This document shows, in pieces, positions 159-4,111 of a stretch of 35,722 nt of DNA (the stretch's first letter is position 1; each line of letters begins with the position of its first letter). The position numbers were made by a program, and so were the translations under genes. The stretch comes from Candidatus Hestiella sp. (GTDB taxonomy: Archaea; Thermoproteota; Thermoprotei_A; Sulfolobales; Acidilobaceae), in the NCBI GenBank assembly GCA_015522625.1, contig WALX01000133.1:1-35722 (forward strand), written 5' to 3'. The notes below the pieces were generated by a model, which was given only the letters and a program-made list of their open reading frames with translations, was not told where the DNA came from and ran no database searches.

Positions 159-611
159 TCAAGCCGTGAGCGACCTCTTATACACTACAACTTTCTCTTC
201 AAACAAATTCTTGTAGTACTTGGTTGTATCTTCTCTTTTCACCTTCTTCTTTTTGTATTCTCTCAAGAACCCCTCAAACCCCTGATCCCAGCTTAAGACA
301 ACATCGCTAGGGAATAAACCCATCACCTTATTTACATCCTCCTTAACAATGCCCATACTTCGTAGTAGTTTGGTAGTGCCTAGGACTTCCCTAAACTCCT
401 TTTCGCTAATAAGCAATAGCAAGATTTTTAGTCTGTTATCATCGATTTTTGATTGTCTGTTCATCGACCTCCACATCATAACCCTGCTAATATCTAAGGC
501 TCTCTGAACCTCTGCCTTACATTTCTTACCTATCACATAATCTAACAACTTGTACCTATCCTCATCACCTATTTTACTTAGATCTAACTTCTCATACCAC
601 TCCCCACTCAT
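159..611 (-). pseudogene. Tyrosine recombinase (archaeal integrase), N-terminal fragment
   Basis: The 150-residue product looks like the N-terminal part of integrases found in crenarchaeal viruses and plasmids. A helix-turn-helix-like region (about residues 20-60, with ALDISRVMMWRSMNR) is followed by the start of the core-binding domain (DTTKYYKNLF, about residues 127-137). The reading frame then runs into an unrelated tail (VYKRSLTA) and stops. The catalytic domain with its R..HxxR..Y residues is absent here and from the remaining bases to the window edge. A GGGGGAT ribosome-binding site precedes the ATG at 611. The fragment ends before the catalytic half, so it should not recombine DNA by itself. 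It may be either a decayed integrase or the Int(N) half of an SSV-type gene split by integration. It lies 112 bases from the tRNA-derived repeat at 723, which supports a link to tRNA-targeted integration. The family call rests on remembered sequence patterns, not a search. Confidence 0.6.
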
Positions 612-662
612 ATCCCCCAGATTTCATATCAGCGGATATCATCAGATATAAGTGTTTCATTT

Positions 663-710
663 TCTCACATAAATACTGAAATGGATTTTCTCAAGGTCTT
701 TCATGTGAGA
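663..710. repeat. 8-bp inverted repeat beside the att copy
   Basis: TCTCACAT at 663-670 is matched by ATGTGAGA at 703-710. An 11-base direct repeat, ACTGAAATGGA, also occurs at 675-685 and 716-726, the second copy running into the tRNA-derived repeat. Such small repeats beside an attachment site could be recombinase arm sites or a terminator hairpin for the flanking sequence. No function is shown. Confidence 0.4.
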
Positions 711-722
711 GGTGAACTGAAA

Positions 723-770
723 TGGAGCCGCCGGCGGGATTCGAACCCGCGACCACTGGCTTACAAGGCC
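723..770 (-). repeat. att copy: 3' fragment of tRNA-Thr (48-bp direct repeat, left)
   Basis: These 48 bases are identical to 2336-2383, the 3' part of tRNA-Thr(TGT), from the anticodon arm through the T arm, acceptor strand and the encoded CCA. Beyond 770 the sequence diverges completely from the tRNA gene, so this copy cannot make a tRNA. A detached tRNA 3' fragment is the classic footprint of site-specific integration into a tRNA gene, which leaves an intact tRNA at one end and a partial copy at the other. Confidence 0.92.
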
Positions 771-1200
771 CTGAGATATAAATACTGGCGTTTCAGCCAA
801 CATTATTAGTGAAACATTTATGCAAAATTGATTATTAAGACGTGTAATCATATATGTCTACTGAAATATTACCTTAGACATGACATATCGTTAAAAGAGC
901 ATGAAGTCTCAGAAATCTTTCATAGTCTCCCTGGAACACGTATGCTACTATACGCAAGTATATGCTCTCTTCAGTCTTCATATTCCATCTCTACTCCATT
1001 CCAGACCTGAGCGACATACTGGCATAATTTCTTTCAAGACATTCCTTCATGAGGTGTTAGTAGTGCTCGCGGATGTGTCACTATCTCAGACTTGCTGAGT
1101 CATGTTTGTAGGCGAAATCGATATTAGGACTTTCGGCAACTTGAGAACCTACATTAAACTACAGTAAGCGAGCTCATGTAAGCGTAAGTGCTCACGAGGG
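771..1200. other. Element interior with no convincing gene
   Basis: The 430 bases between the left att copy and the vapB promoter contain only short overlapping open frames with compositionally odd translations. I see no recognisable domain and no good ribosome-binding site. It is probably decayed element DNA. Confidence 0.4.
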
Positions 1201-1241
1201 TCTTTAAGGTTTGGGTGAGTATTTACTCTTTGGAGGGGTGA
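1201..1241 (+). promoter_or_regulatory. Putative vapBC promoter and ribosome-binding site
   Basis: TCTTTAAG at 1201-1208 resembles an archaeal TATA box, and the strong ribosome-binding site GGAGGGGTGA lies at 1232-1241, just ahead of the ATG at 1247. The RBS is what decides the antitoxin start. Confidence 0.45.
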
Positions 1242-1246
1242 TTGTG

Positions 1247-1474
1247 ATGAGTAGTAAACCAAAAACCATCACGGTTAGGCTACCTCCGTGGGTCTCAGAG
1301 GAGGAGGCCCGGAGAGCTATAGAGGAGGTAGTAGCGAAGCTCTGGGGTCGGATTAGTATCGAAGAGGTTAGAGTGAAACTCGGCGTGAAGAGGGAGCAGC
1401 TATTAGAGGATATTGAGGTGGGAGAATACGACGTAAAAGAGTTACGTAGACATGAGAGGGAGCGGCTATCTTGA
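1247..1474 (+). CDS. Putative antitoxin of a VapBC-type pair
   Basis: The product is about 75 residues and opens with a beta-strand-like KTITVRLPPWVS, followed by a helical charged region (SEEEARRAIEEVVAKLW) and an acidic/basic C-terminus ending RRHERERLS. The layout, a DNA-binding-like N-terminus followed by a helical tail, and the position just upstream of a PIN-domain gene both fit an antitoxin. The exact antitoxin family is not clear. ATG 1247 is chosen because GGAGG lies 10 bases upstream; GTG at 1244 is also possible. The stop codon TGA overlaps the TTG start of the toxin gene (TTGA), implying coupled translation. By analogy the protein binds and neutralises its partner and represses its own promoter. 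Confidence 0.7.
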   Translation: MSSKPKTITVRLPPWVSEEEARRAIEEVVAKLWGRISIEEVRVKLGVKREQLLEDIEVGEYDVKELRRHERERLS

Positions 1475-1815
1475 CAATATTAGATACCAGTATTGTGATA
1501 GGCCGGATCCGCGAGAGGAAGCTCATAATCGAGGATATAACTGTCGTGACTCTTGTAGAGTACCCTCGAATAGTATACTACAAACACTTCCAAGGCAACG
1601 TTATATTCCCCGTAGAGCAAGACTACCTTACCGCCCATAAACTTCAATTGCAACTACTAAAAAGAGGACAGCCTCAAGCATTCGCCGACTTACTAATAGC
1701 TTCCATAACACTAAACAGAGGAGAAAGGCTAGTAACAAGAGATAAAGATTTTAGAGTGATAGCCGAGGTAGCCTCCGAACTAGGCTATGAGTTCGAGTTA
1801 GAACTGAAAACGTGA
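1471..1815 (+). CDS. vapC: PIN-domain ribonuclease toxin (VapC family)
   Basis: The 114-residue protein has the normal size of a VapC toxin. The acidic residues expected of the PIN active site are visible: D5 in the N-terminal MTILDTS strand, E30 in TLVEYPRI, D73 in AFADLLIAS, and D91/D93 in TRDKDF. These residues bind divalent metal and cut RNA; in characterised members the target is usually tRNA or rRNA. The gene begins with TTG inside the antitoxin stop codon. It sits inside the tRNA-Thr-bounded element, where a toxin-antitoxin pair would favour retention of the element. All key residues are present, so it appears functional. Its specific RNA target cannot be told from sequence. Confidence 0.9.
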   Translation: MTILDTSIVIGRIRERKLIIEDITVVTLVEYPRIVYYKHFQGNVIFPVEQDYLTAHKLQLQLLKRGQPQAFADLLIASITLNRGERLVTRDKDFRVIAEVASELGYEFELELKT

Positions 1816-1952
1816 AGATTGAGATTGAAGACGTAAGGACATCCCGAAGAGGATGTAGCACTAATTGCAGAATGTAAGCGCGGAGTATAACATGTGGTAA
1901 AACATAACGTGATCTTCTCCTCGCTTCAAAAAGTCGGTCTTCCACGGTGGTT

Positions 1953-2005
1953 GCCTGTGTATGGTATTTTCGTTATTTTGGTAACTTTGGTAACCATACA
2001 CAGGC
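1953..2005. repeat. 13-bp inverted repeat, long hairpin
   Basis: GCCTGTGTATGGT at 1953-1965 is the exact reverse complement of 1993-2005, with a 27-base AT-rich spacer. The stem is perfect. It may be a recombination or replication site of the element, a terminator after vapC, or the ends of a tiny inserted sequence. Confidence 0.7.
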
Positions 2006-2110
2006 CCCTCCCTCATCCACCTCATCTTTGTCGGTGGTTCATCGAAAGCTACATCGACAGGTACCACTTGACCTGCCTTACGGGAAGTTAAGCATAACCT
2101 CCAGCCCCTG

Positions 2111-2157
2111 ATGGTAACCTTACTCTCATCGGTGCAGGAGAAGAGAGATGTTACCAT
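2111..2157. repeat. Imperfect hairpin (8 bp plus 5 bp stem)
   Basis: ATGGTAAC at 2111-2118 pairs with GTTACCAT at 2150-2157, and after a small bulge CTCTC at 2123-2127 pairs with GAGAG at 2143-2147. It lies in the otherwise gene-free part of the integrated element. Function unknown. Confidence 0.45.
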
Positions 2158-2335
2158 TCCTTCTTCTTATTAATAGACCTTTCCCAAGTATTTAAATGCT
2201 TCCCTAGTTGTCAAAATACATTAAATACTCAAATAAGCAGATAGTCTATATTTCCTTGAGGCTTCCATAGTAAACTGAACCAGTCCGAAGAGCTAGGTAA
2301 TCAGTTAGTTGTCAATAAGGAAACCTTATATGAAT

Positions 2336-2383
2336 TGGAGCCGCCGGCGGGATTCGAACCCGCGACCACTGGCTTACAAGGCC
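2336..2383 (-). repeat. att copy: 3' part of intact tRNA-Thr (48-bp direct repeat, right)
   Basis: Identical to 723-770. This copy belongs to the complete tRNA gene, so integration preserved tRNA function. Confidence 0.92.
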
Positions 2384-2432
2384 AGCGCTTTCGGTACCCA
2401 CGCAGGATCCTACCGGTCTGAGCTACGGCGGC
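2336..2432 (-). tRNA. tRNA-Thr(TGT) with a D-arm intron
   Basis: The acceptor strands GCCGCCG (2432-2426) and CGGCGGC pair. The anticodon arm reads CTGGC-CTTGTAA-GCCAG, giving anticodon TGT, and the T arm is GCGGG-TTCGAAT-CCCGC. CCA is encoded at 2338-2336. Pairing D-stem GCTC with GAGC requires removal of about 20 bases (2409-2390), a non-canonical intron near tRNA position 22/23. The 3' part (2336-2383) is duplicated at 723-770, marking this gene as an integration target. The intron lies outside the duplicated part, so integration leaves it undisturbed. Confidence 0.93.
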
Positions 2433-3575: not shown

Positions 3576-3737
3576 ATGGAACAGCTATATACTATGAAAG
3601 AGGCTTCAAAGCTGCTTGGAGTTCACGTAAGAACCATTCAAAAATGGGATAGGGAAGGTAAGATTAGGTGCGTAAAAACTGTAGGGAGGAAGAGAAGGGT
3701 TCCAGAATCAAAAATAAGAAGGATTTATAAGTATTAA
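3576..3737 (+). pseudogene. IS607-type TnpA, helix-turn-helix domain only
   Basis: The 53-residue frame opens [20 protein letters not shown] and continues [12 protein letters not shown], the MerR-like DNA-binding head of IS607 serine recombinases. In intact relatives this is followed by a linker and a catalytic domain with the nucleophilic serine (YARVSS). Here the frame stops right after the wing ([10 protein letters not shown]). The remaining piece could still bind DNA, but it cannot recombine it. The tnpB remnant starts 14 bases downstream. It was missed by length cut-offs but is clear from the motif. Confidence 0.75.
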
Positions 3738-3751
3738 GAAAGTAGTGGAAA

Positions 3752-4111
3752 ATGCAAGGAAGCTCTTTGAAGACCCTTAGCTACAAGATAAAGCATGACT
3801 ATGATACTAGTGGGTTCTTGTGTAGCTATAAGCACCTCCTCCAAGAAGCAATAGATATCATTTGGGATAACATTAGTTGGGTTGAGAAGGAGCAGAGGAA
3901 GCATTATTACGTTAGGAAACCAATTCCGATAATTCCAATGCCGAGGGATTTTAAGAGAAACCTAAGAAATGTCTTGCTTAAAGATTGGGATTACGCTAAA
4001 CATTATGTAGACTCAGAAAGGGGAAAAGGCTATAATACCTCAAGCCTGATGATCCCCAAGGCTTTGATAGGCGTAAGGCTGCGAATGCCTATGAGCAACT
4101 ATCAAAGCTGA
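3752..4111 (+). pseudogene. TnpB (IS605/IS607 RNA-guided nuclease), N-terminal fragment
   Basis: Residues 1 to about 89 match the start of archaeal TnpB proteins: SYKIKHDYDTSGFLCSYKHL, the DIIWDNISW segment, and the FKRNLRN...WDYAKHYVDS block that normally precedes AIKTAYS. After HYVDS the sequence turns into an unrelated tail (ERGKGYNTSS...), marking a deletion junction near base 4018. The RuvC acidic residues and the zinc finger (about 300 residues) are gone. A second frame, open from 4036 through the DUF302 start, reads PDDPQGFDRRKAANAYEQLS and LNPLGRILSC, and may be left-over coding sequence from the far side of the deletion. Confidence 0.75.

Follow-up and report, generated by a model that had tools for sequence, protein, structure and literature searches.

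Integrase-less toxin–antitoxin cassettes with a shared end at the tRNA-Thr(UGU) gene of an acidilobacean archaeon and its relatives

Introduction

How does a toxin–antitoxin (TA) pair come to lie between a tRNA gene and a detached piece of that gene, with the only trace of a recombinase outside the pair of repeats? The question is posed by a stretch of 35,722 nucleotides (the window) from contig WALX01000133.1 of Candidatus Hestiella sp. In bacteria, cis-mobilizable elements (CIMEs), which are integrase-less and flanked by att sites, are known to accrete site-specifically at tRNA genes (PMC5704250). In archaea, elements inserted in tandem at a single site have been described, as have classical integrases (PMC8371274, PMC6563490), integrons occur in MAGs (PMC9668308), and nearly all vapBC loci of Sulfolobus islandicus are flanked by IS relics (PMC3718332). 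We put at about two in three the probability that the locus holds one of a family of integrase-less, CIME-like cassettes for which the 3' half of tRNA-Thr(UGU) serves as the core and which are moved in trans by integrases of the Phage_integr_3 type.

Results

The tRNA-Thr(UGU) gene is intact (2336–2432, minus strand), and its 3' 48 bp, from the anticodon stem to the 3' end (the inner core, 2336–2383), recur exactly on the same strand at 723–770 (the outer core), 1613 bp away. The repeat extends to 53 bp with one mismatch (718–770 and 2331–2383), and chance is excluded as its origin. A VapB-like gene and a VapC gene lie between the cores, which confirms the perfect tRNA-Thr copy bracketing a TA pair that was described in an earlier note on this DNA. 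The anticodon was read off the sequence: its loop is CTTGTAA, which makes this tRNA Thr(UGU) and not GGT, a call made by ARAGORN because an insertion of about 21 nt in the D arm misleads it. This insertion, which is common to family f1, is probably a non-canonical intron and lies outside the insertion core; the orthologs in G056 and G174, 76 nt long and called TGT, lack it. A third tRNA-Thr core, such as the earlier note had proposed to look for, was not found in the window's own assembly (93% complete), where only other tRNA genes were matched, and contigs of the same genome gave no good match to the first 160 bases of the window, the left edge of which is the end of the contig. Upstream of the tRNA lie a 53-aa MerR/HTH_17 ORF (3576–3737) and then an ORF (3752–4111) with no family match.

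From core to core the cassette measures 1613 bp (723–2335). Its two plus-strand genes encode a VapB-like antitoxin of 75 aa (1247–1474), which gave no match in a family search and is conserved in seven relatives, and, following it, a VapC toxin of 114 aa with a PIN domain (1471–1815). The matches of the latter are weak but consistent (NCBIfam VapC, E 2e-5, below that model's cut-off; Pfam PIN, E 1.9e-4 and 22.4 bits, for a cut-off of 23.6; a PDB VapC chain, E 9e-5), and its acidic residues Asp5, Glu30, Asp73, and Asp91 are invariant in an alignment of five sequences. Such a PIN toxin, its acidic residues conserved and its gene preceded by that of a small antitoxin, suggests a VapBC pair, for which toxin activity and TA function are predicted. 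Att-type direct repeats flank the cassette, and neither integrase nor transfer genes lie inside, as in CIMEs; the earlier description of the element as a non-autonomous VapBC carrier is thus supported. A dispersed repeat of about 300 bp (1948–2250, ends approximate) makes the cassette longer here than in G018, the copy of which lacks it. The repeat is MITE-like, with several copies in G002 (72–79%) and incomplete ones in the window's own genome. Because the tRNA and VapBC are also present at 94% in G002, an independent assembly (contig matching WAJZ01000044, Candidatus Hestiella acidicharens, Acidilobaceae), we reject an artifact affecting the whole cassette.

In a DNA search of 60 relatives, the VapBC segment was found outside the genus at 79–89%, mostly beside copies of the tRNA-Thr core. 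The genomes analyzed in this work are for the most part fragmented MAGs. At least six unrelated TA types occupy the space that separates the core from the tRNA, and their order is shuffled: VapBC (type A), DUF3368 PIN with UPF0175 (B), AF2212 with PIN (C), TumE (D), HicAB (E), and MazE/AbrB with PIN (F). Read outward from the tRNA, the arrays are A in G000, the window's own genome; A with a remnant of B in G056; B-A-D in G018; D-B and others in G005; C-A-F in G011; E-A in G010; E-F on one contig and C-D on another in G020; C in G032; C-B in G115; B in G174; and E in G064, G065, G012, G025, and G048. Decayed TA pairs are present in several of them. Type E measures 755–764 bp from core to core in five of six genomes and type C 1152–1161 bp in four, and homology spans the whole cassette, with the flanks at background on both sides. 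The VapBC DNA is 87–89% identical to that of G056, G018, and G011, as compared to 66–70% for EF-2 (at the protein level, 89–91% versus 68–75%), and type C DNA from G115 (family f8) is 88–91% identical to that of three family f1 genomes. Since cassettes are more conserved between families than EF-2, which is among the most conserved genes, they have been transferred horizontally. No carrier was found among viral contigs (VapC and end-pattern scans) or plasmids (VapC search). In G015 (locus L059, contig C8, 1822–15182), the 13 kb between tRNA-Thr and a core copy hold type I restriction genes and, as read from sequence, CRISPR type III-like genes, a defense island in the same slot.

Alignment of the DNA before displaced cores revealed a shared end, consisting of TGCATAAACGTTTCAG, about 14 further nt, and CTGAAACATCTGTATTTGTATCTC, after which the core begins. 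The end is about 75 bp long and comprises an inverted repeat (TTTCAG/CTGAAA) and an AT box; in the window it occupies 773–845 on the minus strand, with the inverted repeat GTTTCA/TGAAAC at about 790–816 and the AT-rich box beside the core. A model of 77 positions (R1), made from 13 ends with the core left out, scores the window's end at 54 bits, and at E 5.9e-9 with the window excluded from the model. A scan of 214 genomes of the order found R1 ends immediately beside a tRNA-Thr core in 16 of them, which belong to five families. Of the 20 matches outside the training set, 16 directly adjoin the 3' segment of a tRNA, 10 of them recognized by motif and 6 by eye; at random positions, the frequency of the strict T-arm motif is 0.35%. 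Only five of 398 genomes from the phylum have a match at E 1e-6, and all five fall in the window's order. No consensus structure that would represent a folded hairpin was found in the end (0 pairs). The tRNA-proximal end of the cassettes is poorly conserved between types, which counts against the reading proposed below.

Beyond the outer core lies a minus-strand ORF of 150 aa (159–611), which gave no useful match in Pfam, PHROGs, NCBIfam, or PADLOC. It does align to intact integrases of 428–437 aa in relatives (tblastn E 2e-18 and 1e-19), and the one tested, of 437 aa, carries PF16795 (Phage_integr_3) in its C-terminal part (E 5.5e-23). By this homology, what the earlier note had called a recombinase-like fragment is what remains of the N-terminal part of a tyrosine integrase. 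This stump is missing 36 internal residues and all that follows about residue 180 of the homolog, including the catalytic half, and is therefore a pseudogene. At more than 20 loci in relatives, the homologous gene starts about 50–200 bp after a whole tRNA gene (Arg, Gly, Thr, Asp, Ser, or Trp) and reads away from it. As the stump begins 107 bp beyond the repeat copy (718–770), the simplest view is that it was the first gene of an older element, one formerly placed right next to this tRNA. Between the outer core and the stump is a TTTCAG/TGAAAC repeat (643–683, minus strand), weak when taken alone (E 0.91), at the place where intact elements carry one. G029, G018, and G059 likewise have integrase relics immediately beyond an att core; together with the tandem arrays of relatives, which share this layout, these relics bear out the earlier idea of two successive insertions, the outer one decayed.

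Intact elements supply a connection between the shared end and integrases of this family. In G128, a 17-kb element at tRNA-Arg has an intact integrase, a TTTCAG/CTGAAA repeat before it, and, on its far side, an R1-type end and a core; a similar element with an intact integrase, the same arms, and a tRNA-Arg core is found in G059, where additional cores, TA genes, and the remnant of an integrase come after it. At tRNA-Thr(UGU) itself, an intact integrase is present in G164 (contig C14; loci L208 and L209) between identical 43-bp cores 32 kb apart.

Discussion

We propose that the first arrival at the tRNA would have been an older integrase-bearing element, of which the stump at 159–611 would be what is left. 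The VapBC cassette would then have inserted at the tRNA, restoring the 3' end of the gene from its own core and pushing the older element outward behind the displaced copy at 723–770. Such cassettes would excise and insert as small circles through core-by-core recombination, performed in trans by a classical, non-splitting tyrosine integrase of the Phage_integr_3 type that recognizes TTTCAG/CTGAAA arms, and the TA pair may keep the cassette in the cell through post-segregational killing and may add defense. Mobilization in trans is the economical reading because the cassette ends are common to integrase-bearing elements. Several observations count against the proposal: the far core in G164 is not preceded by an R1-type end, so that we can only infer an integrase acting on the tRNA-Thr cassettes; no intact member of the stump's integrase family turned up in the genome from which the window comes; no excision product was seen; and comparison of the DNA beyond the outer core with that following unoccupied tRNAs, the empty-site check envisaged in the earlier note, yielded no clean pair.

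Alternatively, one could envision the cassettes as CIME-type relics, the immobile remains of larger integrase-bearing elements, passively inherited and kept by TA addiction. Integrase stumps beside cores and decayed pairs in several arrays would be expected of such relics, tandem accretion is known in bacteria (PMC5704250), and the divergence of the cassette between G000 and G002 (VapBC DNA 97%, EF-2 94%) is about that of EF-2, as vertical descent would give. However, the same types, with the same lengths and ends, are found in different families, in differing order, and are conserved beyond EF-2, and we thus regard passive inheritance as unlikely. Less probable still, in our view, is the spread of cassettes through uptake of DNA and ordinary homologous recombination of its tRNA-Thr region with the resident one, with no site-specific step: the location of all cassettes of these types at the same tRNA would provide the shared sequence, but homology stops at the cores, so both crossovers would be needed within about 50–100 bp, and the cassette end has arm-like repeats common to integrase-bearing elements.

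That the outer core and stump were joined by a chimeric assembly is very improbable. G002 has neither, and the 91 bp at 547–637 form a fork, common to the end of contig C92 and to C133, at which C92 leaves the integrase after codon 22; however, the fork itself or its shared side takes in the core, the cassette end, and codons 1–22 of the stump, and the layout of a core followed by an integrase recurs in other genomes. The fork is probably, and most simply, a deletion variant within the population. On C92 (locus L009, 80–760), integrase codons 1–22 are joined to the 3' remnant of a VapC-like gene and to a dispersed repeat that has multiple copies. The 487-aa gene after this stretch looks like a 4-hydroxybutyryl-CoA dehydratase, and its ortholog follows the locus in G002. 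The split SSV-type integrase suggested earlier, with its C-terminal half to the left of the window, can be dismissed even though a C-terminal integrase piece abuts a core in G029, because intact homologs stand undivided beside whole tRNAs with att outside the gene, so that integration does not split the gene in this family (in suicidal SSV-like integrases attP lies inside it), while the stump has an internal deletion, the core copy is 107 bp outside the ORF, and a search of the window's own genome for the C-terminal half, which had also been proposed, found none.

Several known systems resemble these cassettes in part. Like CIMEs (PMC5704250), they lack an integrase, are bounded by att sites, and lie in tandem with other elements at a single tRNA; unlike CIMEs, each consists of one TA pair, unrelated types have a common end and fixed lengths, and they extend across archaeal families, with no conjugative parent or parent ICE seen. 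Arrays of small cassettes with TA cargo in shuffled order, often with no integrase nearby, are also typical of integrons and CALINs (PMC9668308), but here the core is half a tRNA gene, the platform is a tRNA gene, each cassette has two genes, the end lacks the folded structure of an attC hairpin, and the related integrases are of the Phage_integr_3 type. Archaeal classical (pNOB8-like) integrases (PMC8371274) likewise use tRNA cores of 40–50 bp and leave the gene whole after integration; the differences from classical and suicidal integrases are that the catalytic domain here is PF16795 and that the cassettes themselves have no integrase. The S. islandicus islands (PMC3718332) share the enrichment of VapBC in horizontally acquired DNA and the use of tRNAs as targets, whereas the present cassettes are flanked by tRNA cores with shared arms. 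With the Phage_integr_3 (PF16795) relatives, the stump shares N-terminal homology and a start just after the tRNA end, and the catalytic domain is absent. The tycheposons of Prochlorococcus are tRNA-linked cargo elements, some of them without full machinery, and in this they are like the cassettes; they differ in being much larger and bacterial and in having, as a rule, their own recombinases. In the literature searched we came across no account of TA cassettes that share ends at tRNA genes of archaea, which is not proof of novelty.

It is tempting, although we would not give it even odds, to regard tRNA-Thr(UGU) in archaea of the Acidilobales/Desulfurococcales type as an integron-like platform at which integrases encoded by other elements would act in trans to capture, stack, and shuffle small standard-end cassettes with TA or defense genes. 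Recombinase-free minimal cassettes, piled up at a single tRNA, would offer a concrete and testable route for the spread of TA pairs between thermophilic archaea, and the arrays would be archaeal cassette arrays apparently mobilized in trans outside integrons. Orphan integrase stumps and tRNA fragments would then be explained as leftovers of older rounds, and the 77-position end model locates such arrays. G018, G024, and G066 have a second class of arms, TGTTGCA/TGCAACA, at cores of the tRNA-Arg type, with arrays of AF2212 and PIN pairs in G018 (locus L053, contig C42, 1845–3628) and G024 (locus L217, contig C1, 5107–7575).
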